Origin: Morchella semilibera
Taxonomy: Eukaryota; Ascomycota; Pezizomycetes; Pezizales; Morchellaceae
Direction of reading: 5' to 3'
Length of the DNA: 64,000 nucleotides
NCBI GenBank assembly: GCA_009192285.1
Contig: CM018605.1
Location: 1,326,530-1,390,529 of the forward strand
Shown: one piece after another, positions 2,142-52,435 of the stretch
How the letters are laid out: each line of letters starts with the position of its first letter
How positions within the stretch are numbered: position 1 is the first letter of the stretch
The notes under the pieces: generated by a model
Database searches by the model: none
What the model was told of the DNA's origin: nothing
The model's input: the letters and a program-made list of their open reading frames with translations, nothing else
Program-made: the position numbers and the translations under genes

Positions 2142-2900
2142 TGAGGGCTTTTTAGGGGGTGGGGGTAATGCGGTATCTACTCTATATATGGGCTAGAGAC
2201 ACTACTTTAGTGGTGCAGGACGATCCAAGAGTTTGGGCCCGATAGCTGTAATTAATCCACTGCATATGATGCTCTGATCTCGTGCGTGTAGCTTGGTATC
2301 TATGTCGTTATTGACAATGTGTTCATGTGTTGGAGAGACCGATATGCGCTACTTACATGTACCTCTGCCTGGAGGTTGACCTGAGGACAATGCCAAGACA
2401 TGTATGTATGCCTAATACATATTGAGCTAAGTACTAGCACATGTATATGAACGACACAATACCGATATGATGCCAAGACAATGAATAATAGCATACATAA
2501 TACAGTCCAATGATAACCATTTCGGGAGTGTCAACACATAAGAAAACCCTTATAAAAGGAAGACGTCACTGTTAACAAGATATCCGGATTTGAACATCAC
2601 CAGTACTATTTGTAGCGGGTGATAACCTATGATGAAGTTGACTACCCCGAGTAGTGTAATGTAAATGGAGGCAACGATGATTCAAAAGCAGTATCTTTGA
2701 ATACGCTAAAGCTACATGTATCTAATTGAGGGGGTGGTTCCCCCAATCTCTCATAAATCGCCCCAAGTTCTGAATTACGAAAGAAACCATGAATTGCATA
2801 TTCGCTAGAAAAAACAGAAAGCCAGGATATTTTTTTTTTCTCTAATGATCCGATTTAACTATATTTATTTTTCTCCCAATAATTCAAAGAAAACACCCAT

Positions 2901-5048
2901 CTAACCGCTGTACTCCTGGATGTTTCCGATGTTCTTGCCAAGGAGAGCCATAGGCACGATACCGGAAACGTGACACTCTGGTCCGTACACATGCATGTCC
3001 AGTTTCAGCTCCTGTCCAACAGCCTTGATGTTCTTTAATCCCTCCTGGTAGTTGGGACCAGCACGACGGACCCAGATCTGAACCTTGTGCTCAATGAGCA
3101 CAGGAGCAAACTCACGGAGGGCACGGATGACACCCTTGAAGGTAGATGCAACGTTCTACGGTAAAATATTAGTTTTGCGGAAAGTTTCCGGGGTACAGGA
3201 GAAGGCTTACAGTGAAGTTGGCAATACCACCACCAATAAAGAGAACACGGCCCTCAGGGTGGATGGGCGCGCGCAACATGAGATCAAAGACGGTGCGGGC
3301 ATAGAGGTATGTCTGTCCCTCAGTGGGCGCACCAGAGTATTCTCCGTAGTTGGCCAGTTCACTGGAGAAACCGGATGAGGCAATGGCGTCGGCATAAACG
3401 ACTGATGCACCACCTCCGGCGACGAGAGTCCACACTCGGCCGACAGGGTTAAGGACGGTCAACTTAAGGGAAGCACCGGTCTTAGCATCAAGGGATGCAA
3501 TGTAACTAATGGACAAGTTAGTCTCTACTGCCCAACCCTAACCCCTTGGGGTTTAAAAGAGCGAAATGGCTTACGCTTCCTCCTTGGTCAGCTCACGACC
3601 AAATGGAGCAGGGAATTCCATTGGTGGGCCAGCATCGATAGAAACAGAGTCGCTTCCAACAGGTCTCAGTCCCAGAGCAGCTGGACTCCTGGCAATGGCC
3701 CATTTAGCACCGCACTCAAACTCGGCGGTCTGATCAAGTTTTGCTGCCAAGTCCAAGAAGTGGACCTGAGCTGAGGTTTTATCCTCGTTGGGGATAACGA
3801 CCAATGGGTTGATCTCGAGGTAACTATAAATGAAATTTTTTAGAAATTGTATCAGGAGCAGTATGCGAATACAAGGGAACTAACGTGAACTGGCAGTCTA
3901 CATAGACGGCATAAAGTCTTGTGATGAAGTCAACAAGGACATTGTGTACACCTGAAGGAACGTTCTTCAAGAGAGTCTGAGCAATAACCTCGTTCGATGG
4001 GTACCTAGCGTAACGAGTTAGTAAAAAAAAAATAGTGTAGGATTTCTATTAGAAAACTTACTTTGATAGATCGACGGGAATCAGAAGCTTCTCAGCCTTC
4101 TCGTCAACATCACCAACATCCACACCTCCTTCATGAGTAAATAGGATCCAGTCACCCTATATAACACGTATTAGTGGTTGTTTGGTTATTTGTTTCAGGC
4201 ATTATAATAAAACATCACAACTTTTTGGCAACAGAAAGTCACCAAAAAGCTTCTAGAAAGCAAGGACAAATAAGGAAAAGACAAATATATAAAAATGCAG
4301 ATCGAAGCCACTTATGTCGGGTAATTAAACTGAAAGAAGTCCGATAAGCGAGAAAACGGCTGCAATGCAGGGTCTGATACAGGGGAGTGACGGTGCACTC
4401 TTCCGAAGAAATCGACGTTGGAAGGGAGACATCCGCTCGACCGAAAGTACATAAAGCTTTTGAGCTCCCGCGATCCAACGGCAACCCGACCACTGCCAAC
4501 AACAACACATACAAGACGCGAAATGCGACACAGTATATACGAAAACAGGAGCGGAAAGGACAGGGCTTTGTTCAAGGAATAAGAAATTAAAGGGAGGACT
4601 ATAAACTGACCTCTCTGACTGAGTGGATATTGATGTAGTATTCCTCCTCAGGCTTGTGTGGGCAAAATGGCTCAACCAAGAATGTTCTCAGGTAGCCCTT
4701 AACAGTCTCAACCTGAACCTCTTTTCCAGCCTTCTGCTCGATCCAGGCACGTGCCTCAGCCCAGGTCTTGTTCAAGGTCAACAATCCGGCCTTTCCACGT
4801 CTCTTGATAAGCTGATCTGGCTTTGCAACGAATCTGGCACCCTGCTCGAGCAACCATGGGTACTGCTGTTCGGCGGCATCGCAGACAGCGGAGGGAGATG
4901 ACCCCTCACCAAAGAACAGAGAAGCAAGCTTTGGTGGAGCATTATGGGGAGGAGTGGGGAGAGTTGAAGGGGCGATGACCGCAGAGCGGGTGAGGTGGTA
5001 GTTGAGGATGGCCTTCCCGTCGGCCTCGTGGATGGATTTAGCAGACAT
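2901..5048 (-). CDS. acl2: ATP-citrate lyase subunit 2 (citryl-CoA synthetase, ATP-grasp half)
   Basis: This is the smaller subunit of the two-gene fungal ATP-citrate lyase, which makes cytosolic acetyl-CoA and oxaloacetate from citrate, CoA and ATP. Six exons on the minus strand read 5048-4611, 4156-4062, 4004-3885, 3823-3575, 3505-3211 and 3155-2901. All junctions are GT-AG in matching phase and give 483 residues, close to the usual length of about 480. The N-terminus starts [12 protein letters not shown] and includes the ATP-grasp segment with [14 protein letters not shown]. The middle has YLEINPLVV, typical of succinyl-CoA-synthetase-type ATP-grasp enzymes. The C-terminal half contains [10 protein letters not shown] and ends in QEYSG. 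The gene is divergent from acl1, so both are probably driven from the 1.35 kb gap and expressed together. No break is seen. Confidence 0.96.
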
Positions 5049-8711: not shown

Positions 8712-9287
8712 ATTAAAACCGAAGAAAAAAAGGTACAAAAAAAATATTGATATACGTAGTAGACAAAAGTGGAATGTCGAAATGTGTTTTTTCTTTCTTA
8801 TCATGGTTCTAGAGCGTTGAAGGACAGGAATGGAATTATGTTATTGTGAATTCTCTATACCCGATATAAGATAGCGAATGGTCCTTGACCTTGCTTTTTT
8901 TATTTGAAGACTGTGATTCGCAGCCGTTTTCTATTTGATTGATGTGTGCAAGTGGCATGGAGGACTTGAGAGTCACCACAGCTCAGACAGCACAATTGGT
9001 GTGTACAGAACCACAATACAATCGTTAAGGCCATGATCAAGTGGTGATACGCAATAAGTATGAGTCTTGTCATGCATCCCCGCTGTATAACGATGCGTCA
9101 AGGCTTATTTATGCGATTGAGTGAGTGAGTAAGTGAGTGTGAGTCGCAACTGCGAGTCATCCTGCAGCCCACCCCACCATACATATGCCACTGTTATTTA
9201 CAAAAACACCCCCGCTTCACACAGTTCGCTCTCGATCTCACAACCATAACCTCACAGAAATTCCCATTCACCTCTGCTACATCAACA
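8712..9287. other. Intergenic: acl1 3' region and upstream of the TPT1 gene
   Basis: A 576-base gap between two same-strand genes. It holds an AT-rich tail after acl1 and an AGTG-type microsatellite at about 9116-9145. A short C-rich leader lies before the ATG at 9288. I see no gene. Confidence 0.6.
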
Positions 9288-10401: not shown

Positions 10402-11458
10402 TGGTAGTTAGTTCTGGCGCGGGAGGCGCTGTATTTGTAAATTAATCATATAGGATCACTTGGTTTGGGTTTTTTGCTTTCCTGTTTACTTGTGGGTTGG
10501 TCGATAGCTTTTTTAAAAAGATGCATAGATAATCATTGAGCCCCTCAGTATGCGTTACTGCTAACAGCCAAATAAAAGCTTGTTATAAGGGGCAATCTCT
10601 CAATAAAGGTACATGTAATCTCTCAATAAAGGCACCACCCTTTCTTTCTTTTGTTTGTGTACTTGTATAAGGGTACATAATATACCAAATCAAACCTCCA
10701 CCGCTATGGAAACCCTCCGCTGTAGTTACCGGCACTTAATCTTAGTCCCGGTACTGTCTACCGGCTGGTTACATGTATTCAGTACATTACAATCTACAAG
10801 GCAAAGGTCTCTTGACGGCTGTGGCTGAGTACTCTGAGGTAAGTATGTATGCACTTCATGTATGTCTTGATGCTCCTATCACGAAAACTCACTCGGTTCC
10901 TTGGGCCTCAGGGATAGGTTTCGCGGATTACATACAGCCCATCGATCGCACCACCCACGGAGACGACACACCCGACCGCCCTCAATCTACCTGGAGAGTA
11001 GGTACATACAAGCTTATTCCGACCTCGACCTGGGCGCACGGGCCAAGTGTTGCATCATGAAGAAAAAAAGAGTGCGTGTGTGTGTGTGTATGGGCGCGTT
11101 TCTAGAAGTCTGCCGGAAGCTCTGGGGCCCGGACATGAGCCCATCCTCTGTAGATCTGCGGGTTGCTCTGGTGCCGAATTCAACTCAACTCAACTCAACT
11201 CAGGGACTGCCGCGTTGCCAAGGAAGGAAGGAAGTCAGCCAATCAGGGCACGTCAATCTAACTTATCCGCCAGGGGGGCCGGCAATCAACACATCGGATA
11301 TAAAGTTCAGCAATCGACCCCAGCTACAGCCACAGAATAGCAATAACAACAACAATAACAGCAAAAACGTACAGGAATCTACATTCACGTCGAGGAATTA
11401 ATTTGAATTGGGGAGTCTCTTCTCTCTCTCTCTAGCAAGACACACACCACTCACAACA
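10402..11458. other. Intergenic: TPT1 3' region and sterol reductase promoter
   Basis: No gene seen. It contains two TACATGTA palindromes (10610, 10770), a five-base AACTC satellite (11180-11202) and a GT-rich stretch near 11072-11088. A TATAAA lies at 11299-11304, about 155 bases before the sterol reductase ATG. A CT-rich tract at about 11415-11435 fits a transcription start region. The TATA assignment is inference. Confidence 0.55.
11180..11202. repeat. AACTC pentanucleotide microsatellite
   Basis: Four to five tandem AACTC units, visible directly, about 260 bases upstream of the sterol reductase start. Confidence 0.8.
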
Positions 11459-13730: not shown

Positions 13731-14085
13731 CCCAGAGTATCGGAAAGTGATGCACGTCTTGACTAGACAACACCTAAATACACCCAAACACACCAACTCG
13801 AAATACTTTCTAGGTGGAGTTTCGAGTATATATTCCCTGGAATGTATCTAGAGATGTCTGGATACTAAGTTTTTGCGTTATAGGGAAGAAGTCACTTCAA
13901 GCTAGTAGAAATGATCATGAGTGGTAAAGGTCACAGGAAAGAATTGATAATAGACTATGTTTTTTGGTTCCTGGCTAAAATATGTATCTTAACGCTTATA
14001 TTAGCCTGGAGATAATTGTATGTGGTATGTAACCCTCTGGTGGTTGATAAATTATGAAATGTGCATCAATTTCCGACACCCTGAG
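13731..14085. mobile_element. 355-bp MITE with 25-bp terminal inverted repeats and TA target duplication
   Basis: The left terminus (13731-13755) and the reverse complement of the right terminus (14061-14085) match at 21 of 25 positions, sharing TCGGAAA and TGATGCAC. Both ends abut a TA dinucleotide (13729-13730 and 14086-14087), as expected for Tc1/mariner-type target duplication. No coding capacity is present, so it would be a non-autonomous element mobilised in trans. The superfamily is inferred from the TA duplication alone. Confidence 0.72.
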
Positions 14086-14095
14086 TACATACATA

Positions 14096-14514
14096 GCACC
14101 CAGTGGTTGGTGCCGGAAGGTGATGCAGTGGTCAAATACGGTATGAAAAATACGGGAGGGTAAAATAACTACCAATACTGTATTCTTGCCACATAGCTAG
14201 CGTATTGACGGGAATATCGTAGTGCTCTTTTTTGATACTGTAGCTGTGGTAAGAGCTAATATGAGCAATTAAATGTATTGCCTCCCATTTTATTACTACC
14301 TCTTGTCACAAAGTGTTCTTTTGCAGGCTAAAAATCCTAAATCAATGACCTAGAGAGAGAGGGGAGGGAAATGCAGATCCTATTATTATAGAGACTCGTA
14401 TTCCATGCAAATGGCTAAAACATTCATGCTGTTCAAGCATTGTGTTGTGTTAAAAGGCCGGAATTCAGAGTGCCTCTCTGTCAAAGGTTGCATCACTCTC
14501 CAGCACCCCCGGGT
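14096..14514. mobile_element. Second, degenerate MITE-like inverted pair
   Basis: GGTGCCGGAAGGTGATGCA at 14109-14127 faces an inverted relative at 14489-14507, with about 16 of 19 positions matching. Both resemble the termini of the 13731-14085 element. The outer bases and target duplication are not clear. A further single copy in direct orientation lies at 13517-13535 without a visible partner. Confidence 0.45.
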
Positions 14515-14932
14515 ACATGTAGACCACACCCATTTGTACCATAGGGCTTTTGTGAGCATTGATTCGTTTTTAAACACCCCCCTTGGACTGTAGATAGAGG
14601 TACTGTTATCTATATACTATATAGCAATGTTAAAGTAGACTCAAGGCCATATGGATGGAGTACAAGTACTATTGTCAGTGAACTTGGAGGCTAACAAAAA
14701 CCATCCCATTTGCCTCCGGCGCTCTGCTGCCTACATACCTATCCATATACGTGATATATTCAAGTAGTTTAAACACCACAGAGTAAGAGGAATAACCATT
14801 AAAAAGGCAAAACGCCACCTTGAGGCAATCCTCCGCTACAAAGAAGTACTTGGTATATATACATGGACATATCAGGCCCGCACTAATAGGAGGCCAGCTT
14901 GACAGGGTTGTACCTATTAACTTTATGTATAC

Positions 14933-16100: not shown

Positions 16101-17108
16101 TTAATTATACAGGTTAGCTGGGATCAGATGTATATATGTAACTGTACTGTGGAACGCGGCAAACTTACTTATTGTTGTAGGCACTTATTCAGGGGGAGCT
16201 CAAGTTTGTAGGAGTAGACTGTGTTTTACTACTTCTCTCGAAGCCCTGGTGAGCTTGGGGTATAGTTTCATGCGTATAGGATTAATTGTACTACGGGTGT
16301 AGGGGTAAGTCTCCAGAACTATGGCCTGTTGCAACCATGGCCGGCGTAGTTCTGGAGACTTACCCCTACCCCCCGTAGTACAATTTGTGCGGGGTTACAG
16401 CTCTACATAGCTTGGATGCCTGAACTGCACATTACTCATAAGTATTTTGCGTGGCAACCGCATCTAAGTAGATACATGTACTTACTTCTAGCAACCTACA
16501 GGTGTCAATTTGTTAGATTTAGAGTAGTTTGAACTTTTCACTTGATAAGTTGCGTAGACGCCTGTAATTAATATCTATTGGGCAGTAGATCTTGGCGATC
16601 GAGTGTTTCCTGTCATGCATCATCACTCGGTATTTAGGCCTAACACATCATGTAATTATGTCAGGCATCCAAGTATCCTTGGTGGGAGGCCTGAGTTTTT
16701 AACGACTACTTTAGTATTTACATACGTTGATTAGCCTAGTACCAGTAATCTAGTAGCATTTCAGCGTCGTAGCTCCTCTTCACATGACGAGATTGTATAT
16801 AGAGCGGAAATTTCATAAGGCATCCAACATAAAGTTAACAACGACAATATTGACACTTCCCCTACCCCAGATGTTTCGTTCTTGTGGATTTATTTACTAT
16901 AAAAACTTCTCGTCTACCTGACCGGACCTCTATATATATCGCATAGGCCTCATTATACATTTTTTTTCTTGAGGCTCTTCGCTACCCGTTGATCCTCCTC
17001 TTCCCTTTACCTTGGCAAGGTTGTGGAACCTCACAATCCTGCAAGTCTCCCGTGTACTAACCTTCCCAACCACAAGCCTATTACCTTGCTCTCTGTTGAT
17101 CCTCCTCA
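16101..17108. other. Intergenic spacer with a long perfect-type hairpin
   Basis: The gap lies between the divergent BTB and Gfd2-like genes. Apart from the hairpin at 16284-16385 and a TACATGTA at 16473, I see no gene. A pyrimidine-rich leader precedes the ATG at 17109. Confidence 0.6.
16284..16385. repeat. Inverted repeat, about 38-bp arms with 25-base loop
   Basis: Arms at 16284-16321 and 16347-16385 are reverse complements except for one substitution and one G-run indel. The loop contains GGCC on both sides. It could be a small foldback element or the source of a hairpin transcript. No terminal duplication is obvious. Confidence 0.85.
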
Positions 17109-18823: not shown

Positions 18824-21800
18824 ACACTTGTTTCTTCCTCTATTCTATATCTCCTCCCCCCCCCCCTTTTTTTTCGTCTTTCAGTCGATTTCGCCATTCA
18901 ATTCTAACCACTTATGACGCATGAAAATTGGAGGAAGACTCGCAGAGTCTGTTAGAGTTTAAAGGAGAATGACCCCCCAAATCTGTATTTCCGATGCATA
19001 GTTGTGAGGCTTTATAAACCCAGGCGTAGAAAACCAACAAATCGAAGCTCACACTCAAATTCTCTAAAGGCTGTTTCTAGACTATCTTTCACAAGAAATC
19101 TAGCTCTCTAGCTTATATATACTAGACCTAGGTGGACCTGGCGGGATATTGGAGCTTTTATATTTCATTGGATCATGTGTTATCACTCGTAAAGTTTCAA
19201 CAGGCCGCGCTACTGGTTGATTGGTTTGGTCACAGGCCCGCGCGAATATTGCGAGCCTAAATTCATTAAACAGAGGGAAATGAGACGCGACAATTCCAGA
19301 GTACACTATACTCTAACCATTAGGGCTATTAAGGAGTATATGTAACATCTTGAGTATACGTATTGATAACAGGTGCGTGTTGAGTATAATACATGTTGCA
19401 AGTTGCGCCGCATGTAGACTGCCACCATTGCAGAAGCCTACCGAGATTCAATGGCCTCTGAAAAACCGACCGAAACCAAGGCTGGATAAAACCACCCTTA
19501 GTCTCCCATACATCACAATTTCTAAAACGCTTGTTGCATATTTCTAGGCTAAGCCTTAATGGTAAGGCATCAGTAACCCCGAAGATGCAACTATGAAACC
19601 CGCCAGCCAAGTCGCAGATGAGCTAGCGTAGAGCGAATCAGAAGTTGTTGCCCACAACGGGACCGTTTAAGTGATTGCTGCCGGTACCGGATTGATGGAA
19701 CTCAGGAATTCCCCCACATCAGGTATGTGTGGAGTGGGGACATAAATCCCAAAATCCTTAATATGGCTACAATTCCAATTTAGTTTATGTTTTTTTTTCC
19801 ATGTCGGTAGTAGGTACTCTCTACCTGAGGGTGATCGTCGTTCTAGAGCCTCTTTGGGTTGACATATTCCATCATGTCTTAGCCAATGGCCTTTGCACGT
19901 TTCCGATGTTACGCGAAACAGGGATATCATTGACCCATGAGAACCGGTAATCATAAATTTGCGGGAAAAAATGAATCCCCAGAGGGTATGAACACTCCAG
20001 GAGTCGAGTGGTGTATGCGGAGTCTTACGTAACCCCCTCACACAGCTCCTTCCATAGCCAAGCAGACACGCTCGTGCACCCTTTCTTATGCACGTGGGTT
20101 ACAAAAAAGTATTTGAGCTTTCATGTCAAGATGCCTATCATGTAGGCCGCCTTGCTGGTCCGGTGGCCATGGGGGAAACATACATGTAGTAGTAAACACC
20201 AAAAGGCCAACCACGTGTTAGATGCAGATCGCGCCAGAGCCCGATGGTGATGGACTCTCTTTAATCATATGTACCTATGATTTCCACTTCTACCTCAAAT
20301 CCCAGAGGCGCTAAGTCAGCAGATGCGAAGGTGAGAACTGCAAGTTTAGTTAGTATCCGCATAAGCACAGACTTCGAACTAAGGACTGTATACTTTGTGT
20401 ATCATATATTTAGGCATGGGTAAGCTTAAGCTTGCTTGATGTGTTGTTTAGTACTTGTTACGATCAGTGATGGGCCGGCGGATAAAGTTTTGCGATCCAG
20501 AACAGTTTAAATTCACAAGCCTTGGCATAGTCACCCCCATCACGCCCAATTGATCACGCAAATACATATTGGCTTTCAGCAGGAAGGCTCGAAATGCACT
20601 ACCGATTTCCAGAAGTGCACGCGCACAGCACCATATACATGTAGAGTAGGTACTATTTCAGACTTAACTGGTCAGGAATAGGCCTATTTCTTTCTAGAGC
20701 ACCTGCTCATTAATTTACAATTGGAAACAACCTGCTGCGTAATGGTCCATGCACGCAGGGTGTTGGGCTAGGGCATAATTCTCCATACATGAGTGCAGAG
20801 AAACTGAGAATCCTGTTCTCAGTGTGCATTTCAAAATTGGTTTCAGGACAATTGGCCCCCTGAATATGTAGGTACCTACATGTACACTCAGTACAAGTTT
20901 GAATGAAGTAGAAGTTCTTGGCAGTATATGTGTTCAAATTTATGCACACTTTTGACTTACACTAAACTCGAGACTATGGATACTACATGTATATATGGAT
21001 AGTGTATAACATTTTGGTATATATACAATATCTACAGTGATAAACATAATAAAGGTCACAAAGCCATGGTGATGGCTAAAATGTGTTTTGGCCTTTTTTC
21101 GAGGCAGCCTGTCGTCGACGTGGCCCAACTGTCTGCTTGAGCGGCGGTGGTTGTCACGAGAAGCTGCAGGTACAGCCGACAGCGTGACTATATCCTTTTT
21201 TTTCCCCCACCCAACCCAATCAGGAGATTTCAACGCCACTGGTCTTCCCAATCATTGCCCTCTGGATAGCCAGGAATTAAACTCACCTTCTTCTGCTGTG
21301 TGCATGTTCTGTACTAGCTGAACCATGCCCCCTAATTTATTGTGGGGTTTAGCTCTTGCCTAGAAGTGTCCTCCCGAAATCATGATTTCATCAAATGGCG
21401 TATATATCAATTACATGAAATAGTATCGATTATTATCAATATATACATGTATATATATATATCAGGCTCACACATGATCCTTGAGGTGATATCAGATGCA
21501 TTAGCATTCTCCATCAAGAAACCTAATCTAAAGAATTCAAGGTTTGGTATCTTCGTTTGATAAACACTCGGTTTATCTGTGAAGCTATTTCACGAATCCG
21601 CGGATGTGATTGTGACTGCTAATTGTACCGTTAATCAAGTGTAATTCGGAGGATTCCGGATTGGTAACTGTGTGGCTCACCCGGTCATTCCCGGTAGCTT
21701 CAGGGTTCGATGATACAATTAAACATCCATTTACTTTTAATTCTTTCTGACCCCTCCACTACCCCACGTACTTATCAGATATCACCATCTCATATTACTA

Positions 21801-23876: not shown

Positions 23877-24999
23877 GATTGCGAAAAGTAGTGATTTGCT
23901 ATTTGAGGAACTGGAACAAGTTTTCACAGGGTCAGTGTCTCCGTTCTTATACTTGCTTCGTGAGTCACATGGCAAGCAAGCCCACAAAGGTTCCCGCAAA
24001 GGTTCCCACCAAGGTCTCCCCCAGGCGGTAGGCCAACATAGGCTAGATATTGCCAATAACAGAGAAATCAACTGAACACTTGGGGATAAGTGGGGGGGAA
24101 AGCTTACATGAAGTAGCGACGCGAGAAATGTTATCACTCACTGGTAGTGAATAGTATAGAGATGTTGTTGGGTGTACTGAGCGAGGAGGAGGAACTGCTT
24201 TGAGGAGAAGAAAAGCAGAAAGAAAGGAATGGCAAGGGCAACGTTAAAAGTGGAAATCTGGACTGGGGGGAATAAGTAATTATTATTATTGCATGTAAGG
24301 ACAGGCCTACGGGCACTGGCCGCCGTACTGGTGATACGGGCGAGCCAGGGCTTCAGCAAGTGTCTCGGCTTTGCTCTTTGGGCGCGGGGGTGCCGCATCG
24401 CAGCATCATTTGCGGCCTTTTGTTGGGTCCTGCTGTACACGCAAAGAGACACTACTTGAAATGCACACACATGAGAGAATGCTTGTCTTGGATGGGCACC
24501 AGAGCGGAATCCGGGATGAAGAGATATGTATCCCCAATCTATGGATTGGATGAATCCAAGGGTAAAATATGTTGGAACCGCATCGAAATAATCAATCAAA
24601 GAACACCGGGAAAATTGCGGAAAGGTATGGAAGAAAGGGGCCGAAGTGCCTCGGTCATTGATGCGAAGAGCATCTAAGTATTTATGTGTACCTAACTATG
24701 TGACATGTAGGTACATGTACTTGCTCTTTCACAACATCTCTTATCGAACCTGTGGAAAAAGATGCGGGCGGATGGATGCACAGCGGTTGGTGATCGATTC
24801 AGGCGTTGGTATGCCCAATTTTACCAATTTTACGGGAAATAGCTATCTATCTCTAGAGTACATACAGGGGGAACTGGGAAAGGGGCGTCACAGAAGTCGC
24901 CCAAGAGACTATTTGACGAAGGGAAACACCCTAAAACAAAGGTGAGTAATTTGAAACGGAACTTTGTTTGTTCTCAGCTGTGTATGGCTTCAAAATATT

Positions 25000-27454: not shown

Positions 27455-29142
27455 CTAGATGGAGACGGGTTATGCATATGGCCACAAGATGCTACGAGAC
27501 GGCTCGACCCGTCATATTATGTACATGTAGTAGCCCCAACCTACATGTACATGTAGTCTAGTACTAATCTCCTACGATTACTCCAAACCTCCAGACACTT
27601 ACAAGATTTCCCAACAACAACCACAGTAGCGGCTGTCAGTTGACAAAACCCGGCGGTTCACAGACATTCACCGGCGCCGACCACCCACGGACAGATAAAT
27701 ATATTGTAACAGCAATTTCTACGTTGTCATTCATGAATAGTGGACCTGCCCTATCCGAGAAAACCCTTTATGCTCGGAGGATATTCCAGCTAGCTGAAGA
27801 ATACATGGAATGTGTTTCTGATAAACTACCTGACTAGAGCCGGTGAACAAGCAGAAATCTTAGTTTATGCCGTTTATTAGGGGACACAAGAATAAGGATC
27901 AGGTATAGATATGGACTAAGGATCCACCAAACTATTCTATTTATTGATGACAGATATAATGTTTACTAATAGATTGGAGCCTACTAGGACGCCCACTTAA
28001 AAGTAATGATGCATGCACTGAGCGTATGAGCATTATTCTTTTTACAGACATCTACCACGGCTCTTGTACTAGATTTAGATACTCCAACTCAAAAAATTCC
28101 AGACACAAGATTAAGTAAAGCCAATAACAAGCTCTGGGCACTGAAGAGTATGAACCAGCAATAAATGGAACCTATAATTTCTATTCTTAGTCTTGCCGAG
28201 CATATATCTAGGTTCTACTATGTTTGAGTTACCTGGGGGTAATCTAAAAGAGTGAAGTGTTGATGCACGCACATCCCTCCATCACGCACCAAATCGATTC
28301 TCGTCAACAACTTCGCATGTAACTCCACTCGCCCACGCTGTAGGAGCAGGTGGTACAGTAACCCAACCCAACCCAGAGTTCCTTGATAAATTGGCCCGGG
28401 CCGTAAAAAACTTAGTCCAATCTACACATTTCCTGTCCGGGCCAGAATCAAAGCATATGCATCATAAACATATATTAGGGTATCTGAACCCTATTACCAA
28501 AAACGGGAAGAATTAGTAGAGTAGTAAATTCAGCACTATCCCCGAAAAGAACACTGCCAAGAGGCAAGGACGAAGCACGCCCCAATCATTGACCCTAAGC
28601 CAAACTTACATGTATCTATGCTATATTTAAAGTACTGGACCCCCAATAGGCAGTGCCCAAGTCTGCTAAAATATACCAGAAAATAAAGTTGTTAATTAGA
28701 GAATCTTTGATGTGATGATAAAAGAGTACTATGAAGCCCCCCCCCCCCCTAATCGAATACCTTCTCGTATTGTGTTGATCTAAAATTTGGGAGGCCGAGG
28801 TTTCATACTAGAGAGAATCAAGGAAGCGAATATATTCGATTCATTTATCAGCTAGTCCAATTATTTATGTCGGCGTTTTCTGATTGAATCTTGTGACCTT
28901 GTACTAGTACATATTTTTCTCCGAGTTAATTTCCAGTATCCCTCTAGGCCTTAATACTCACTACAAAACATCTAGAATATAATGCCTTGTGAGGCCTTGT
29001 GGTGTGATCATGTTACTGGAAGAGCTCCAATAAAGACGCAACAAAAATACATACTTTACCGCCTTTGCCCATCACGGTGAGAGGCTTCAAATCTCAAAAT
29101 TCAACCCAACGGGAGCAGATATAAGTCTTTAACTACAGCACC

Positions 29143-29227: not shown

Positions 29228-30128
29228 ATACTTGGCAAGTTACCATTTTGATTATCTACGCCCTAAAGCCTGAAAGGTCAACCACTCCTCCAACGTGGCA
29301 ACGAAACGATAGAATTCATACCGGCACGATCTTTGACAGTCTGCAGTTGTGAGTGATATCTTATAACTGTGAAATAAGCTACCCCCTCCCCCTAAGTGGT
29401 ATTTAGAGCGGATACTGGACTTATAAGAGATTACTATAAAGTACATGTGCCTGCCCACATTCCGAGGTGCCCTCCCATTTAAATAACAATACATGTATTG
29501 AACCTAACATACCAGTCTACCCAAATTGGTTTCATCTATTTGCATGCCTATCAGATTATCAATGGCGTTGAGCATGAGAACGGGTTCAACCCTCCCAGTG
29601 TTACTTTGGAAACCGGTAAAGAAGCCTCTGTGATCCAAGCGGAAGTATTCTGCAGGCTTTAATCGAAGCACTCAATTCATATCCAGAGGGAAACCAGTCC
29701 TGTTAATTGATTCCGATTCGGCACCTATAACAGTTCGTGACGGATGTGTTCATCAAATCATGCCCGAAACACATGGCGTTCTCTGTTAGAGAGAGAGGAA
29801 TTGAGGGGCCCGGGGGGTTTACCCTTTGGTGCTGATTCCAAATAATAAGGTTCTCCTCTCGGAGTAAATGCCCAGACTCACGTGCATTGAGGCTCTCCCC
29901 TCGCATGAACTTCCCAAGATAGGATAGCTTCAAGGATAATTCAGGGATTCCTGCAGGTATGAGAGCAGTTTTTATGGGCTGCGATTTGCTTGCCCGATCT
30001 CTCTCGCCTCAAGTGACGCAATTCCCTAGATGCCCCATCGACGTCGACATCCGCCCCTAAAAAGACTCTACAAAATCCCTCCCCATTATCCAGGATTTCC
30101 TTTCTGAACAATCATTAGAACAGTAAAC

Positions 30129-34628: not shown

Positions 34629-37600
34629 TATTCTATCGTAGAAGCGCCGAGCTATACTATTATTCTATGTAAAAAAGGGTCTCCTTGAAACGCGCGCGCC
34701 GTGAAGAGTACTTGTGGTGATAGTATGAGGAAAAAAAATAAAGAAATATAGAAAAGGACGGGGATATCCGATATTGGAAAGAGATGAGCCGGTTTAAAGA
34801 AAGTGCAAAAGCCCACGAGACTTCTTGATGTTAGCAGCAGAGAGCGCTGGATCACGAAGACAGACTTGATGCGGGATGACGGTGCGGTGAACGAGAGGGG
34901 TAGCAACAGCAGCAATAGCTTTTTTTTTTTTTTTTTTTTTTTTTTGCTGGGATGGGGGGGGGGGGGGGCGGATGTATCAATAATAGAATGGGGGTGACGG
35001 TCACGTCTTGTGTGATGAATGAGGGTGGTTGGGTTATTTGGTTGTGGTTGTGGTGGTGGTGGTTGTGATGGTGGGAGGATGAGGAAGTTGATATCAATCA
35101 GGGAGCACAAGTTGGATTGTAAATAATGTAGAGGCAGGCAATAATCAATCCCTGAAGGGGATGGGGGGAGGGGGGGGGAGGGAATGAGAAGATGAACCAG
35201 CTGATGCCGCTCAAAACATTTAATAGTGGGGGGGGGGGATGGTGGAGGATGCGGGGAAGAAGATTTTAATGTTGTAGATACGAAAAGCAGTTCTATAGGT
35301 TCGGGATAAACCAGGGAATAAGTCTTCAAGCTATCAGGAGCTAGGAGACGGAGGTTTTAGATGGGTTGATGGGGATGGGATGAAGAGTGAGGGTGGAGGG
35401 GATGTCTATGTAGGATGTATGTATGTAAGTTATGTATGTATTACACGTACATGTATGTACCTGTCGAGGAGTAGGAGTAAAAAGGTAAGGGATTATTGTG
35501 AGACTGCAGTAATGCTACATTTATGTACATGTGCCCCCAATATAATACTACATGTACATGTAAGTTGTATGTTCTTGTGTGGAGGAGGCAAACATCCCTT
35601 TCTCTCTTTCCCTTTCAACTGAGTTCTCTCTTTAATTTCATCTTTCCCCCCTTTTCTTTTTCTCTATTTTTTTTTTCTTCCGTGAGGCGCGTTTAGCTAT
35701 CAATTGAGTGCTACACATTATCTAGGGGGAAAAACAGAAGGGATGGACTAAAAAAATTAATAGGAAAGAAAAGGGTCCACACCAATTTGGGAGGCTCGTG
35801 GGGAGCAGCAAGAAAAGCCCGGTGGTGGCGGAGGTTATTTTGTTAGGGAAACAACTTTGCAAATCACGGGCAGCTTATGGTTAGCTACATGGCGTAAGCC
35901 AGCCCAGAGCAGTTACCTTGGTGACGGTTGCATAGGCAACACCCAGTAGACAACAGTTGCCCTCTCTTCCAGATGTCAAGAGACCCACTCTGGTCTTCCC
36001 CTTCTCTCCCCCATGCTCATCCAGCAACTTCTTCCGCGTGAGTATTTTCAGTGTTACAGACCTGGCACGCCTGCTTGCGAAAGAATTACATACATACACC
36101 TCTCCTCCATATTTGCCTTTGCCTCCCACCCTAACCGAAGGAGGGGACCCTGGCTATCCTGGGGGAATAGCTTCTTCTTCTTTCTACCCTATCAGAAGCA
36201 TGAAATGCTACCCATCCCCCGGCAAAAATCTAAAAAGAAAATCACCGAAAATCTCTGGGCGCTTGATTTAAACAACGCCTGCATATCAAAAAGTAAATCA
36301 AAAGAAGAAAGAATCGTTTTTCTTCCCGCCGCCATCATGCTTCTTGACTTACAGCCCCAGTCGAGAACCGGTAGATCCCCACCCCCAATCACATCAGAAA
36401 AGTTTGAAAGAAGAAGAAAAAAAAACATGATCTGCCTCATTGCATATTCCTCGCCTCAAACTTTTTTTTTAAACCCCCGATCGGCTTACATTTAACGCGG
36501 GGAGCAAGACAGCATGAAAGCTACACCTCCGCATATTAACAGCTGTGGAAATCCTTATATCAAATTCCCACCGAAAAGGAAGGCTTCCGAAACGCGAGAG
36601 CAGCTGACCAGCCAGTAGGCTTCGTTGACCGAGCAAATACCGGCCGGTACCTGCAGGCTCCAGTGATCTTGTTGGTTTGTTGGTTCTTCTAAGCTTAAAC
36701 TTAAAACTTCTCAGGTACAAGCTCCAAGGACAAAAAGAAACAAACAAACAGAGGACATCTCTTCGCAGGAAGAAGAAGGACAAGCCTGCCAAGGCCCTCC
36801 CTCCATCACTGACCCGGGAAGCCAAAACCCGAACCGCATCGAACGACCCCCAACAGTCCTCCCCGGGATTTCATAACGGCCTGTCTTTTATACATGAATA
36901 ATTGACGAATGGGTTAATGACGTAGAAAAAATAATGCATAGCCTGAAATATTATGGGGAAGCTAAAATGCTTCCCACCCCGAATATCAACTTTCGCGATA
37001 CTTAGGTAATTGTCCGTCGTGCTCATGAGCCGAATCTTACGGGCTGGCCGAGGTCTTAATAATCCCCACCCCGGGAGTTGAGAAAGAGAGATTTGAACCC
37101 AGGGCGAAATGAAACCGAGCGAAAGAAAGAAAGAGGTAACGAGTGGCGCTTTAAGGCCCGCCTCGAGCTTTGGAGAATTCGAGACCGAACATAGATAGGG
37201 TACAATTCGGACCCAGCCCAGAACTTCCTTCTCCCTTTCTCCTTTACTCTCTTTCCTTTTTTCTACCTCTCCAGGATGTCGAGCGGCGGCAAATGATAAA
37301 CGAACTTGCGTTACGGGCCCAGGTCCCCCCGGTGAGCCGTGCGTCAAACCAAGCCCCAAGGGTTAGGGGAAGACTTTCTGGATGCGGGCGATAGCACCGT
37401 TATTAATTTATTTGAAAACTGCCCCAACCGTTCCATGCAGATCCCCCACTAACTTGAGTTATGTTTTCCGGCCGTCTATCCTCCACATATAGCATGGAGA
37501 AGGTAGGTATAACAAACTTTCCTTTCTGTTATCGTCGATGGGAGATCTTCGGTAATAACAGCAAGGATTTTGCTTAGAAGAAGCTAGAGTACTTTACTAA

Positions 37601-39890: not shown

Positions 39891-42800
39891 GGTGAGGATG
39901 ACTAGGTAAAGACAGTACAGTACAAATGAGTTTATTCCTACCTGGTCAACTGCTAACGAGCGTTCGAGTACTCTGAATGGTAGGAGAGCCGGTACATGTA
40001 CTTATATACCAACAATATAATATTAGGCTTGGTGTGATGGTTCTCTTAGGAACGTGATCGCCTTAAATAAACTTCGTCTAAATACTAGTGCTGTCAATAT
40101 TCCAAAATAGTGTGCCTTGTGATCAAAAAGCAAAGTCGTCCCCCCAACTCTTGCGAGTATATTCTATTCTATTTGCGACCCAATTAAATCATTCCAAATT
40201 GGGGTCTGATTATCGAGTGATTGCACATGACGCACGGCAATATCATACAGCATTCCACGAGGCTAGTGTTTAAGATGCGAGTGATTGCCATTGATAGGGT
40301 CATAAAAAGAGGCCTGTGAGGGCAGCCTGTACATGTAAAGTTCAGTAGTTGAAACATGAGTGTTAAAATTGGAATTAGTTCATTCATGACGTAGACTACT
40401 ATATATGTAAGGGACAAACATACTGTAGGGGATCAATGGCTTTAATTATCTGTACACTTTTCAGTCAGGCCACCCCCCTATTTTGTGTGTTTTGAGTTTT
40501 TTGGCGGACTATTAAGGATACGCCTTTCACGATCCCGTTCTGCTTTGCTTCTTCGTCTCAAGCATAATGCTAAAGAATCATGGTAATGTCCACGGTAATC
40601 TACAAGGGGAGAACAGATGGAATATGGCACCTAGGCCAATTATATCTAGATATCCAGCACTCATAAGCGAGAGAATTTGTCGGTTGACAATCACGGAATA
40701 TCACTCACCTTTATATTCCGTGGTTATACGTTACGACCAGGCTTTGCTTGCAACACGTCAACGTGTACTACTTACATGTGCGCTGAGAGGCATGTACGAG
40801 TATAGTATGTATATTGACTAGACACAAGATCTACGGGCACTACTGGCCTGAACCTGTCAGTAATTAAGATATGGCCCAAGGGATAGAGCATCGGCAGCAC
40901 GGAGCACCCGACTACATTCTGTCTGTAGAACTCTGTGTGCACTTCAACCTTCTTGTACGCCTTCCACTCAAGCCCCTTCTCCTGACGTTATCCAATGATT
41001 AATGTCCATTTATGCGCTCCTACCCGAAATTATTCTGTTCAACATCTGTCATATGGCCCATAATTTAAGGAGTAGTAGCGTTCGTGTGCTCGTGTACTTA
41101 TAAGGCAGTCTAGTCGCCTACGCGTTCATACCAAGCCAGCAAAGTGAGATCGGCACATAGTTGGTCCTAATCCACGGATATAATCATAGCCCTGCCTGCC
41201 TGTATGTATTGAATGATGAGGTGTCTGTATACCAGTGGTCAGCAAGCAGAGAGATGCTCGTTATCAGACCCCACAGTAGATGAATGATGCTGTTGTGAAG
41301 GTGTCTGTTAGTGTTAAAAAAGCATTTCTAGCCCCCACATTCAGCCGCTGTTCGTGACCAGAGCATAGATAAAAGAGCATAGGCCGTTTTCTTGACGCGT
41401 TAAGAAAAGCCAATGATTTCTCTCATCTCCACCCGCATATACATGTATATAATGAAAAGGTTCGAATTCTTCGGTAAGCATAGATTCAAAAAAGAACCTA
41501 TGCTAAGCACCCACGATACGAATACCATTTATTTTAGCCAGGGTGTATTCAAAATCCAGTCCCAAGTATCTTCGCCCCTACTCTCCCAAGTACTGGATCA
41601 ATATATCCTTCACCACAGCAAATAGCTTTTCGTGCATAGGCGGGCTGGAAAAGGCGGCGTGGTTCCAACCCAGCGGTAGGGTTCAGTAATCCTTGAACTC
41701 TCGGCTGAGGACGAGGCCAAGGGTTTTATATTTTCATCCGGGGACAAAAGTATTTTATCTTCCGTCGTGCTAAATGATCTTGGTTCATTAATTTCTCGGC
41801 GCTGACTATCCTTGCATGGGATTGCAGTTCACAGATCTAAAGTGTTTTCGGAAGCCTTTCGGCCCGAATACCAGACCCAAGATCCCAAGAATCTAGGCTG
41901 CATAGTCATGCCGAAATCGTGACGCGGCCGAACGCAGGCCACGCCTTCAAGTCTCCCGATGTGAGTCGTTGACGAGCAAACTAGGATCCAGGGCAGGACT
42001 GTCATGCTCGATGCCCAGGTGACTGACAGATAAGTGTGAGGTTTCACACGTCCGGTCAGACATTATGAAAGCATAAGTTTTCGGTAGAAAGCTCTAGAGT
42101 TCGTTGTAGATCTTAGTCTTATGATTCCGGTATTGCGTTTTAATGCCTTGAGCCTCGAGCCTTGGAGATCCTAGAGTCTAGGCTGCATGCATATCGATCC
42201 TCAAATCACTGCTGTGTGCAGGCTGCCACAGCAACAAGTAGTCGCCTTGGTAGTAAATTCTAGGGCAGGGAACCCCGCACCATAGACACAGGTATAATAG
42301 ATATATATCGATTTTGTTTATCGCGTACGGATAGAAGTGAAGATCGAGATATATATGTAGTTCCATAGTCCAGATAAACTCTCCGATGAAGATTACGACA
42401 AACCTGTTTTCAACGCCTCTATGATAGTGTAGAACCCCCGCTCGGGGTTGTTCCGTCCGTCGTGACTGGTTTAGACAAGACTGCGCAAGTTTGGTGGAAA
42501 AGATAAGGCTTGTCACGGCAGATAGAAAGTGCAGTAGAGTATGATCATGCATACCAGGAACATGGGAGCCGCTTAAGTATGTCGCGATATGCAAGATGTT
42601 CGTGGAACCGAGTTGTTTGACACATAGACCATCATGCAGTTCGGTTTTTTCGAGGTCCTAAAGGCACATGGAGAGAGCTCCGGGCTGCGGGGTAACGGAT
42701 TGACTTGCAAATTTCTTTCGTTAGCATACAGCTGAGCTAACTTGGCAAGTTCCTAGCGGAAGATCATCACGATTGTGAGGCCATAAGGCTGCATTCACTA

Positions 42801-46795: not shown

Positions 46796-49700
46796 GCCCA
46801 TGTGGGATGTGGGTGGGTGATATGGCCACAGCAATATCGCTCCGAGAATTTTTTGAGTATGGTTGGAAAAGTTTGGGTCCGCATAAAATTACTTATTGGG
46901 GCATCATGCATTTATTTTGTCACAAAGTCTGCTTCAAGCAATTTGTGGTGGTTTTTATTTCTGGTTTGGCACTGCATTTGGTACTAACCTGTTTATTTGT
47001 CTTTATTCTTTCCTATATCTTTCCCTCTTATTTTATATTATGGTTGGGACCTTTGATGTGATGGGGACCTGCATGTGAGCTTGGGGTTTTTTTGTGGGGA
47101 ACCTTGCAATACTTGGCGTGATGTCTTATCGCTCTGGGTACCTTTATGGTTACAAGGAGAGGGTGGGTTGCTTGGCACAAGGGTCGCGGGCGGCATTTAG
47201 ACCTTCCCTTGGTAACGCATAATGATACGCCTCTGCCGTGGTTGCAGCTCACATTTACTTTAGTTTTCTCTTATGAGTTTTATTTGGAGTTATGGTAATC
47301 CGTTGTGGTGGGTCCATGGCGGTTGGTATCTTTTTTTCTTCCTCTTTTTCCCCGACGAATCTCAATATTCTCAATAAATAACTAGGAATTTTATATAAGT
47401 CTTTTTCTCGTAAAAAAATAAATTATTTTGGATATTCCGTTTACGCTCAATCTGATAAACATTGCCGATCCACGAGGTCAATGATTCTTAGACGGGTTTC
47501 CTCTCATTGTGCCGGCCAGCACCTAGACCACTTTGTCTCTTTCTATAACACTAGATCATGGAAATCATTGGTTTTAGGGCATACCTCTGGTTATCTGCGC
47601 GTGCACATAGCCCATTCCATACTTTTGTATCTTTGTCAATCGGGAAACGGACTTTTGTAGCTCAGTCTAGTAGAGTCCCCAAAGAGCTAGATTTCAACTT
47701 AAGCCTTCTTTTTGTCGGTTCTCCGTTGAAATCTTTGAGTGCGGTCTAGACTCGTCTCTTCTAAGCTTGTAAGGTTCATTGTCAACAATGAGCCAGAGTA
47801 TCCAGACGGGGGCGCTAGTGATGCTCACTGCCGCTGTAATCCTTAAAACTCTTCGCCCCAGCGCTTATTTCATGGCTAGGGGTACTTCAGAGAAGCATTT
47901 CCCTATCATGTGATAATGGGATCCCAAGTCTCGGCGTGGCTCTAACGGTTTTATATTTTTTTCTTGGCAACTATTATCACCACGTGTGCGGAGGTGGGCC
48001 GAACTACAATCTTGCGACTCTATTTAGTGCCATTAGGATGGCGAGAAATTGGCAGCCAAGCCAGAACGCTCGCAGACCTCTCGTCTCTTTTCGTGATGTC
48101 TATATGTACCCTTTCGTCTTGCGTTAGCTGGCATTAATGGCCTGCGTACTCAGCTGTTGATATGGGGGTAATGCACAGTGGATTTAATATTTCCTTTTGA
48201 TCCGAGACTGGTAACAAGTCTGAGGGAGGCAGTTAACTGTGGTATGAGACTAGAACGGGGGCTCTGATATGGGGGTTGGTATGATTCCCATTGGAGCTCA
48301 AGGCACCTTCTGATCGCAACCACAAGGCTCGATCAGTCAGTTATCTGGATACCCAAGTCATAAATGAAACCCTTCTGCTCTTCTACAGGCGTCCGCCCCA
48401 GGCTTCTTTACAAAGGGCGTGTCAACTTTGAACGACCCCAGAAGGTTTCTTCTCTGGCTACTCGGATCTGTGACGATTGATTGGCACACGGAGACGGTCT
48501 CGACTCTCGGGGCCGATAAGCTCCCCCTCGTCCACTTCCTCAAGTAGTTGGGAAAAGAATTCCTTTAATTTTTGAAAGGCTGGTCTAGTACTGGCTAGCT
48601 TATACTTTAGAAATCCTTGATAAAGTAATTCTAATCTCTGGTGTCAGTTTTATTTATTGCTCCATCTCTTTCCAGAGGGTCTTACTTTACTTCGTTCATC
48701 ACTACATGTATTCCCCCCACACTGCAGCGTGGAAATAAACCCGAATTGAGGCCTTAGACTAGCCAACGGAGACTTCCCGGTACCGGTCAGTAAGTATGGT
48801 TCATGAACCAAGACATGGTATGGAATTTGAGCACCGAGTCAAGAACTTTGCGAACTGCGAAACTTTCTTATATTACTCCTGCCCTCTAAGCCTCGGGCTA
48901 AATGTCTTGCATATGCCCTCCAAACCGCAGGCTTGCAGAGGCGATCGATCATTGTGGCCGATACTGTTTTTGCTGGCGCTTAGGTGGTTTCCTTAGAAGC
49001 CGAGAAACACCTTCAAACCAGATTACTGTTCTAAGGCTCTCAGTTAAAGGTGAATAGACATCAGGAATGCACCTTAAACAAGCTTAAACCATGTTCCTAG
49101 GCGAGACACGTAAGACGCTGACACTCCAGGCCTATTCCATCGCGCAACTGTTACTAAGATTTAACCAACGAAGCCAATTCAATCCATACACACAAACTAC
49201 AAGTCAAGTACGTCGGTGAATTCTCCTATATTACGCCCCTCTGTTGGCCATGGGGGACGTGATTTTTTATTTATTATTTATTTTTTGTAAGCTGACAAAA
49301 CAATGTTGTCTTACTCAGGATTATAGAGCCACTTAAAAACGCAAAAAAAAATTATTTTACATACCAGTGGTTGTTATCAGAATTTCCGGTCTATTATTCG
49401 GCTACAATTCCAAGAATATCACACTTTCTCCATCGAATGCCTTGGCTTTGCCGAGTGATATTCTGTGATGCTTGGCCTTCTTGGAGTCCCACAGCCCAAT
49501 ATGTGGATATACCCCACTTGACCCCAGTTCTGAGTGCCCAGTAATCGTTGTGGCCCTTATTGCTATTGATGAATATAATATATAAGTACATATATGTCTC
49601 AAAATCTTTAATAAGAGAACACCGTGTACTGATACCACAAGGTAGTCGATATTGGGTTCTCCTCCCAATAGCCTATTGGGATACGGAAATTTACCCGTGG

Positions 49701-52435
49701 ACTTACCATTTATTATAAAGAAACCGAGTAGCTGCTGATAGATCTAAGAAATCTTTGCCCTTCTAATACTATTATCCAGGCATAAATTGATTGCATGTGC
49801 GACCTGCCCTAATGAACAGCCGAACCTAATATTTACTTATAGGATCCCTGCAAGTTATTCTGGCTTACTTTACGAACAAGGTGCATACGTATTTTCCGTC
49901 CCTTCTTGCCCTTCGGAGGACCGCAAAACTAGCGAGATACTCGGATAATATAAGGGATACCAAAAAGTAATCACGCAATGTAATGAATCTTCTCAAAAAC
50001 GATGGCCAAGAGAAAGCACCACCAATGATAATTGGCATGGCTTGGAAAACTGCTATTCCTTGGCTGCCAAGCATTAAACCAATAGTGATATCTCATGATC
50101 GAACATTTGAAGCCACAGCGCTTTCTTGCATTCATGCAACCCTTTCCATGCCGCAGTCCCGCCTCAGGTTGGTAGGTGAGTCATGTGTCGAAGGGCGTAA
50201 GTAGACGATGCTGTAACCGAGATGTGGTTGAAAAGGTGCAGAGTGAGATTGACCGTTTTGTAGCCTTACATTGTATTTATGATTCGCTCACTGACCAGGC
50301 CGTGCAAAGGTCGGATTGAAAATAACAAGTATGTATGTAGACACATCATACATTATTGAAAAATTGTCCGAGTCACCACCACCTGGTCGATTGTTCAAGT
50401 GACATGAGTCGGAGGAGATCAAGTTGTAATTAGCGCCAATGGTGAGGTCACTTTGGACTAGAGTACAACGGCTTGATAGAGTTGCGTTAATGTGCTGCCT
50501 GCCGGGAGAATCAATCACATTTAACAGGGTGATATGATGGTAGAGATGGATGGATACTTTACATGTACTTACACCCAAGTACAAGTACAGTTTTTGAGCC
50601 GGTACATGGTTAAAAACTTCCCATGACCATGGATCTAGTAGGATTAACACTGTACCTACGTGCATATCGATCTTTAGAAGATATACATGTATGTACATGT
50701 ACGGATATGCCAAGGATTTCTGTATCGTGATATCTCATGACCCAGTTAAGGCTTGGGGAGGTCCTTTTTTTTGGTCTGATATGATACTTCTAAGCTGTGA
50801 GCCTCGTTTAATCGACTTGTTCAAAAAGGTTCTTATATATATTGATGTACTCCACCCCCTCCTTTAATAAACCGATTACAGCAACCAGTACCACGTACAG
50901 TACTGTCTGTACAGAATACGGCCGCGGAAACTTTAATAATGCCATGCCAATGTCGATGACGACGCTGATACATACGAATTTGAAGCCAACAGAGTGGAGA
51001 CGGGATACCCCGAAGAAGAACGGTGGTGTCCAAGCGACGTTATGAGAGGAGCCTGACGGAGTGACAGTTCCGCGAGTCGGCGGAATGGAATGCATCTCCC
51101 CAGCGAGTTAAGCCAGCGACCGTGGGCCAGCATCTCGACCCACAGCATCTCGACTAAAACGGAAATACGAGCCAAGAAAATTTTTTTCATACTGGCTCGG
51201 CGACGTGGGATCTTGCTGCTGCTGGTGCTTTTATTCATCTTTGCCCTAACCCCTGCCTTTTTGATTGAGAGTGTAGTTACGTTACATGTGACGAGAATTC
51301 ATTATTGTTGAGCAAGGAAGGTCCAGTGTTCAGGTCAGTGGAGGAGTGGAGAAGTATTTCTTTTTCTCCCTCTTTCTTTCTCTCTCATTTTTTTTTATTT
51401 TATCTTTTTATTTTTTTATCCCCCCCCCCTTCCTCTTTTCCCATCCCTCGGTCGTTTTCTATCAAGTTTTCATCTACAACGATACCGGGGAGAATGGAAA
51501 CAACGATTCCCTTTTTTTTTCTTTACCCCGTTTTGTAAAAACGGAACGATCTTGCACTGCCTCCTTATTTCGACAGGATAAATTGAGTGCTCACGCATGT
51601 TTGGCGGCAGTAGGCGGTCGAGGGGGCTCAACGACCGAATCAGAGGGCTCGTACGGCTTGGCAGGATAACGCCAAGGAAGGCCAAGGAAGGCCAAGGATA
51701 AAGCCAAGAGATTTTGAGCCGGAATAGTATTAGATGCCAATAGTATTTGGCTTGGACGGTGGCACCCCCCCAATCTCCAACGCCATCTGCTTCCACACAA
51801 GGCTCATGGGCAGCAGCACTGGAAAAGGTGAACAGGACGTTCCCAACCCATTCCCCCCCCCCTCTCTCTTTTTTGAGATTGCTATGCTTTGCTTTAATGT
51901 ATGAACGTAAATTTGCATGTAAGAAAGTGTGTAGTGGTACTTCAACGGATGGTCTGTTCGGGGGTCTACTAATACATGTACTCCCTCAGTTCCCTTAGTT
52001 TAGTCTTTAGTAAAAAGTCTTGCATTACAACATTACAAGTAAAAAAAAATTCCCTTTTCTCGTGCCTCCCCCCTCGTGGATTTTCTGGAGCCCGCCACAC
52101 TTCTTCTTCTAAAGTTCACACCCACACCCACAACTACTACTACCTTACCATCCCCCATATCCAATCCAGTATCATCGTTCTTCCCTTCCCGTTGCTTGTT
52201 AATCGGGACGCTGCCCTCCTTCTTAATCAAGACCTTCTCCATTACTCATTTACAGCTGCTCTTCCTTTCCTCATCCTCTTCTTGTAGTTTTTTTTTATTC
52301 TAACCCCCTCCCCCCCCCCCACTTTATTGAACCAAAAAAGGTCCCCTCCCCCAACATATTCATAAGTGTTCCTCCTTCATACCGAGGGACCCCGCAGCAA
52401 CCATAGATTCCATTCACTCCATCCTCGACCAGTTC
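46796..52435. other. 5.6 kb gene-poor spacer, then the pacC upstream region
   Basis: No supported protein gene. The first kilobase is the MAPKK 3' region. TACATGTA lies at 48703, 50560, 50684, 50694 and 51973. From about 51300 the strand becomes pyrimidine-rich with poly-T and poly-C runs. A cluster of PacC-type sites at 51671-51708 is listed separately. The pacC start codon probably lies in an unrecognised exon near the right end. Confidence 0.55.
51671..51708 (+). promoter_or_regulatory. Tandem PacC-type binding sites (four GCCAAG)
   Basis: GCCAAG occurs at 51671, 51681, 51691 and 51703. The first three are exactly 10 bases apart and separated by GAAG or a near variant. The core recognised by PacC zinc fingers is known to be GCCARG. 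The sites lie about 730-770 bases upstream of the first recognisable pacC codons, which suggests autoregulation. That is inference; in Aspergillus, pacC itself is alkaline-induced. Confidence 0.6.

Follow-up and report, generated by a model that had tools for sequence, protein, structure and literature searches.

The 64,000-nucleotide stretch of Morchella semilibera DNA considered here (assembly GCA_009192285.1, contig CM018605.1, positions 1,326,530 to 1,390,529; hereafter the window, meaning the whole of that stretch) contains many exact copies of the palindrome TACATGTA, as does the rest of the genome. It is likely, in our view, that most of these sites are excision footprints of transposons of the Tc1/mariner class, or of their miniature inverted-repeat transposable elements (MITEs), with ends of the form CA...TG. 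Elements of the Tc1 type integrate at a TA, which becomes duplicated, and on exit the CA and TG of their termini may stay behind. Read as TA + CATG + TA, TACATGTA fits a Tc1-type excision footprint at a Tc1-like target, ANN-TA-NNT. The results that bear on this directly are the origin of one site by a six-base insertion, the sequence context of the target, the statistics of tandem copies, the confinement of the word to non-coding DNA and the presence of Tc1-like transposases in the genome.

The hand count of 28 exact copies in the window, made in the initial annotation, is correct, as are 26 of its 28 coordinates; the other two were off by one (27543 and 27549, properly 27542 and 27548). Where it expected one to two copies in 64 kb, Markov models of orders 0–3 give 0.8–1.5, and under these models the probability of at least 28 copies is at most 5.3e-26. 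The runner-up among palindromic 8-mers in the window is TATATATA, with 12 copies. The sites, all of them exact matches and listed without strand, are as follows.

2354..2361, TACATGTA site
2713..2720, TACATGTA site
10610..10617, TACATGTA site
10770..10777, TACATGTA site
14514..14521, TACATGTA site
16473..16480, TACATGTA site
20181..20188, TACATGTA site
20636..20643, TACATGTA site
20877..20884, TACATGTA site
20984..20991, TACATGTA site
21444..21451, TACATGTA site within a TA-rich tract
24712..24719, TACATGTA site
27522..27529, TACATGTA site
27542..27555, TACATGTA pair with a common TA (27542 and 27548)
28607..28614, TACATGTA site
29490..29497, TACATGTA site
35448..35455, TACATGTA site
35549..35562, TACATGTA pair with a common TA (35549 and 35555)
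39993..40000, TACATGTA site
40330..40337, TACATGTA site
41440..41447, TACATGTA site
48703..48710, TACATGTA site
50560..50567, TACATGTA site
50684..50701, TACATGTA-TG-TACATGTA, pair 10 bp apart (50684 and 50694)
51973..51980, TACATGTA site, intronic as predicted by a crude gene model

The excess extends far beyond the window. In the genome as searched (56.76 Mb in 23 contigs, with the window in contig C3), the palindrome occurs 22,206 times where about 1,080 copies would be expected from the base composition of the window, and the density in the window (0.44/kb) is typical of the genome (0.39/kb). Contigs C9 and C10 are identical across the 9,992 bp compared, and C12/C13 and C21/C22 give paired hits with equal scores. 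The assembly probably holds duplicate contigs, and because of these duplicates the genome-wide counts are somewhat inflated. Word statistics were taken from samples of 254 and 304 kb, made up of the window plus 19 or 24 ten-kb stretches at round coordinates; the sample figures quoted below refer to the 110 TACATGTA sites and 17,860 TAs in the 304 kb, the duplicate stretch L033 being left out. With palindromes counted once per place, TACATGTA is the commonest 8-mer behind two homopolymers in the 254 kb, a result repeated in the 304 kb, and in both samples it tops the Markov z-scores among non-homopolymer words at orders 3, 4 and 5. In the 304 kb it stands at 23 times the order-2 expectation, with its twelve one-mismatch neighbours at merely 1.1–2.5 times; transitions among these variants are higher on average, and together the two features fit the decay of an exact product. 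The reversed string ATGTACAT, taken as a control, has 3,723 copies genome-wide and is not clean: of its 19 sample copies, 15 overlap a TACATGTA or lie directly beside one. Three further words, GTACCTAC, TAGGTACA and TACTACTA, are over-represented too in the 304 kb and might be marks of other families. Stretches L007, L028, L009, L010 and L011 contain no TACATGTA; a repeat of 5–6 kb is common to L007 and L028 and to L009 and L010, partly with a Gypsy-like reverse transcriptase fragment as judged by eye.

The origin of a site can be examined where it lies in repeated DNA, and comparison of 33 loci with one another yielded two such cases, L001:1946 and L003:2062. The first sits in a repeat of about 135 bp, for which 40 places were scored out of 104 candidates, self and duplicate contigs included. 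The L001 copy reads ...AAAGC-TACATGTA-CCTTTTTG; when twelve further copies and that in L012 were aligned at this position, six bases were absent from all 13. Ten of them have a plain TA, and the exceptions have CA (L054) or TG (L056) or are nine bases shorter (L052). Since ten copies, 77–82% identical to L001, carry the plain TA, the simple reading is that the L001 site arose by insertion of six bases at a TA. Its flanks, A-G-C-TA-C-C-T, are of the form ANN-TA-NNT. At the second site, L003:2062, a nine-base difference from the tandem neighbour falls at a TA, and this pair is compatible, if not cleanly so, with a full and a partial footprint plus a one-base change. A looser self-search gave 13 alignments across sites, five of them the L001 repeat again.

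The context seen at L001 is a general one. Around the 110 sites of the sample the palindrome extends symmetrically into a longer form, T-A-N-notT-TACATGTA-notA-N-T-A. On the left flank the favoured bases are A (position −3, p 1.5e-17) and T (position −4, p 2e-8), T is scarce at −1 (p 0.005), and the right side is the mirror image; the remaining positions from −12 to −2 all have p above 0.08. Of the 220 flanks, 140 have A at −3 or T at +3, a frequency that is 29.5% next to TAs in general; the share is unsurpassed among the 35 palindromic 8-mers with n of at least 9, and in the window alone the figure is 33 of 56. Both bases are present at 8,039 of the 22,206 sites genome-wide, that is 36% where 8.7% would be expected. 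In the part of PMC7913693 that deals with target choice, the Tc1-type element ZB is described as preferring a palindromic AT repeat around its target TA, like SB and Bari, and such a target is considered possibly general to Tc1-like elements.

That some copies are tandem, as the initial annotation remarked, is confirmed by the window pairs at 27542/27548 and 35549/35555, and the former would represent a single TA hit twice. The genome-wide tally is 22,206 singles, 501 doubles and 23 triples. The doubles give a rehit rate of 1.1% per TA, from which 17 triples would be predicted, against the 23 counted; this fall-off matches independent hits on TAs, not slippage. The corresponding rate across all TAs is about 0.67% (22,206 of roughly 3.33 million, scaled from the 17,860 TAs in the 304 kb). 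Copies 10 bp apart, TACATGTA-NN-TACATGTA, in which a TANNTA context is shared, number 606 genome-wide, versus 37 for the reversed pattern. The lengths of TACA..TGTA pairs show, besides zero, small peaks at 4 and 6 bp only.

To place the sites relative to genes, we relied mainly on a simple gene model trained on long frames, without transcripts, which labels 112 of the 304 kb as coding. A second model over-called introns and was discarded, and a third, stricter one gives 56 kb of coding sequence (CDS). ERG4/ERG24, an F-box/WD40 protein, ATP-citrate lyase and the shortness of introns would point to a filamentous ascomycete. None of the 28 window sites falls in predicted CDS, in agreement with the earlier statement that none lay in a called exon, and one (51973) falls in a predicted intron; the accompanying estimate that about a third of the window is coding was on the high side of our crude model, which gives 16.7 of 64 kb. 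Across the sample, one of the 110 sites lies in predicted CDS, three in predicted introns and 106 between genes, and by the stricter model none of the 110 lies within the 56 kb of CDS. Each site was then allotted to whichever predicted gene end lay closest, up to 3 kb away, using 70 predicted genes from the same crude models. There are 56 sites in 78 kb of 5' sides and 48 in 85.3 kb of 3' sides; by type of spacer, there are 22 in 22.8 kb of convergent spacers (0.97/kb), 29 in 28.5 kb of divergent spacers (1.02/kb) and 25 in 45.6 kb of tandem spacers. Promoter-bearing divergent spacers thus show no excess of density over promoter-free convergent ones, a similarity that argues against a promoter-only signal. 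Upstream of predicted starts, three sites lie in the 16.6 kb within 300 bp and 28 in the 27.2 kb at 300–1000 bp.

In the mechanism that we propose, an element would insert at a TA, preferably within ANN-TA-NNT, and duplicate it. Its exit would be by staggered cutting, two bases in from either end, after which end joining would fuse TA-CA to TG-TA, giving TACATGTA, six bases over the empty site. The TAs of such a scar, each already half a preferred target, could be hit again, from which (TACATG)nTA runs and pairs spaced by 10 bp would result. Insertions in exons would be selected out, whilst scars would stay in spacers and some introns and there undergo mutational decay. We infer that excision caused the insertion, and likewise that what one tested site shows holds for the greater part of the 22,206. 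The product itself has been described: according to an excerpt of PMC3520976, excision of Tc1 in C. elegans leaves, though rarely, the footprint taCATGta. The initial annotation had left the cause open among a protein-binding or nucleosome-related site, a methylation target and a spreading micro-element, of which the last comes closest, in that the evidence points to the trace of a mobile element. Neither of the outcomes that it named as refuting its observation, a genome-wide count near expectation or equal density in exons, was obtained.

Elements of the appropriate class are present in the genome. The DDE_3 domain has 69 matches genome-wide, duplicate contigs included, and an element in locus L031 has a 378-amino-acid frame with both DDE_3 and HTH_Tnp_Tc3_2, the transposase being nearest to Sleeping Beauty among solved structures. 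Its ends are CAGC..GCTG and its target TAGG^TA...TA^CCTA, so that end type and target context fit in this one, low-copy type. In a scan for TA-flanked inverted repeats, CA ends gave the most hits of the 16 dinucleotides (5 versus 0–4); with the target context added, CA had seven hits, two of them strong (at least 12 of 14), and CC, GA and TG had one strong hit each. A MITE of the CAGTACAATCTCG type at L015:8491-8643 spans 149 bp between TAs, with inverted ends, and has 35 matching pieces genome-wide. A second MITE, starting with TACAGTACC (L015:8867-9006 and L017:2653), is more numerous, with 40 places scored of 234 candidates, mostly at 86–88% to the query, and is perhaps a recent burst.

Two further elements were seen in passing. 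A short inverted-repeat element with CTACGGGGGTAGG-type ends is found at positions 16284-16385 of the window and, on another contig, at L005:4815-4904. At L002:1653-1929, a MITE with CCTACCC..TTCGTGA inverted ends lies at a TA between the TACATGTA sites at L002:1643 and 1928, placed as though it had landed inside a scar pair; about 109 related ends are found genome-wide.

A number of observations weigh against excision scars as the origin of most sites. The empty-site comparison provides a single clean case plus one messy pair, both from loci chosen because of their tandem copies; no site of the 110 in the sample lent itself to such a comparison. The other eight alignments of the looser search (E 0.009–0.026) lack the six-base step: five have the site in both partners and three have other letters of equal length, including TACGCGTA opposite L019:4439. 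These alignments are near chance and constitute neither support nor a strong objection. The ATGTACAT control has the same flank fraction as the palindrome (1,407 of 3,723), which we ascribe to its overlap with TACATGTA. Partial footprints, TACATA/TATGTA, show a weak rise, to 1.8 times expectation against a median of 1.6 for TA-NN-TA words, and their A-3 share is 0.43. Sites are rare within 300 bp of predicted starts and common at 300–1000 bp upstream, a distribution of which a regulatory reading could make use.

No source family was found among the CAGTACAATCTCG MITE, the TACAGTACC MITE and the TACAGC/L031 element. The L031 type is low-copy, with 13 end-like matches within 3 mismatches, and the related ends, about 109 genome-wide (reversed controls, 2 and 10), start TAAAG, not TACA, in all seven shown. 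The CAGTACAATCTCG MITE was rejected as a source on finding A-3/T+3 in 6 of 18 flanks, which is background, and the TACAGTACC MITE on finding the target context in none of three flanks read. Of the five CA-end hits, two represent a single element read in different registers, and two more resemble chance matches. Excision repair is varied elsewhere, with rice showing perfect repair in 8 of 94 excisions in the data seen from PMC4423477, and a passage of PMC3520976 deems the corresponding Phytophthora motif too conserved and too abundant for a transposon footprint. Twenty thousand scars with few remaining elements demands an extraordinary history.

The main rival explanation is a binding site: an abundant protein acting as a homodimer, either a transcription factor or a component of chromatin, would recognise the half-site TGTA-NN-TA, and selection would maintain the word in spacers. 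As an account of the sites in general we consider this unlikely; it is possible above all for a subset of them. An exact palindrome with symmetric flanks would suit such a protein, as would near absence from predicted CDS (1 of 110 sites) and the 28 sites counted between 300 and 1000 bp upstream of predicted starts (27.2 kb in all). In the section of PMC3520976 concerned, the same word is an abundant upstream motif of Phytophthora, for which binding of a homodimer is suggested and a comparison with IRX homeodomains is drawn. Left unexplained, however, are the six-base insertion at TA in the sole clean case and the ANN-TA-NNT context; promoter-free convergent spacers are as dense as divergent ones in our crude models, and one-mismatch variants are hardly enriched, unlike those of a tolerant binding motif. 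IRX homeodomains carry Ala-50. The lone Homeobox_KN match (E of at most 0.001) has a recognition helix that reads WFINARRR across an exon junction, which is not the Ala-50 form, and no IRX-type (Ala-50) homeodomain was found in a six-frame search, which may miss domains split by introns.

A different possibility is that six bases were inserted at TA by a process other than excision, such as unknown end-processing at transposase-like nicks, or as a six-base micro-element. This we judge quite improbable: Tc1-like elements are present in the genome, and we know of no mechanism other than Tc1 excision that makes exactly TACATGTA. Tc1 excision, in the excerpt of PMC3520976, makes exactly this product. 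In favour of another process, the product in Morchella is more uniform than the usual outcome of excision repair (PMC4423477, in part), and no source family was found among the elements examined.

Microsatellite slippage, or a bias of spacer DNA towards low complexity (TACATG repeats, TA-rich tracts), would account for the existence of tandem copies and for the mild enrichment of other TA-containing words, but is highly improbable and is rejected by the tandem counts, in which doubles (501) and triples (23) are few beside the 22,206 singles, where slippage would make long arrays frequent; nor does it explain an excess of 23 times the order-2 expectation against 1.1–2.5 times for one-mismatch neighbours, or the lack of significant structure at positions −12 to −5. 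UGUA is used in 3' processing and is present on both strands of the word, but an RNA-level signal on either strand, with UGUA elements in 3' ends, is just as implausible, there being no excess beside stop codons: four sites lie in the 11.6 kb at 0–200 bp downstream (0.35/kb), versus 48 in the 85.3 kb of all 3' sides.

Should most copies indeed be excision scars, the word would count past transposition (how often, where and when) and would record the end joining of the host. A broader proposition, to which we lean slightly less than evenly, is that a Tc1-class element, of which almost nothing survives today, once inserted into and departed from about twenty thousand places (about 0.67% of TAs) with near-uniformly exact repair, and that the top non-homopolymer word of this genome, and perhaps Phytophthora motif-1, is the fossil record of that transposition. 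Among the literature matches listed, no title announces genome-wide TACATGTA scars, and the occurrence of the word in the portion of PMC10629817 seen is a repair oligonucleotide of no relevance here. If the broader proposition is true, transposition could be dated and mapped without any surviving element; if most copies are scars, the commonest non-homopolymer word would stem from DNA repair after transposons, not from selection for gene control. Motif finders treat such palindromes as regulatory sites, and one published oomycete motif is the same word.

Several known systems invite comparison. HIP1, the highly iterated palindrome of cyanobacteria, is likewise a genome-wide 8-bp palindrome; it is a different word and is present in coding DNA too, unlike the palindrome described here, which avoids coding DNA. 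Mimp elements are fungal MITEs moved by impala, and this genome similarly has TA-flanked short elements with CAGT-type ends, although no source of the scars emerged among the elements examined. The target of Sleeping Beauty and other Tc1-like elements takes the form ANNTANNT. With respect to the TA, its A at −3 and its T at +3 are as found here (the form given in the part of PMC7913693 seen is ATATATAT), whereas in Morchella T at −4 and A at +4 are preferred too, and it is scars rather than insertions that reveal the preference. Phytophthora motif-1 is the same abundant palindrome, upstream of genes, but the relevant text of PMC3520976 reads it as a transcription factor site and explicitly not as a transposon footprint; its four printed examples there have A-3/T+3 in 3 of 8 flanks. 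Closest of all is the C. elegans Tc1 footprint as described in that excerpt of PMC3520976, which has the same eight bases, with the TA duplicated around CA/TG end remnants: rare in the nematode, it outnumbers every other 8-mer except homopolymers in the sampled Morchella genome.

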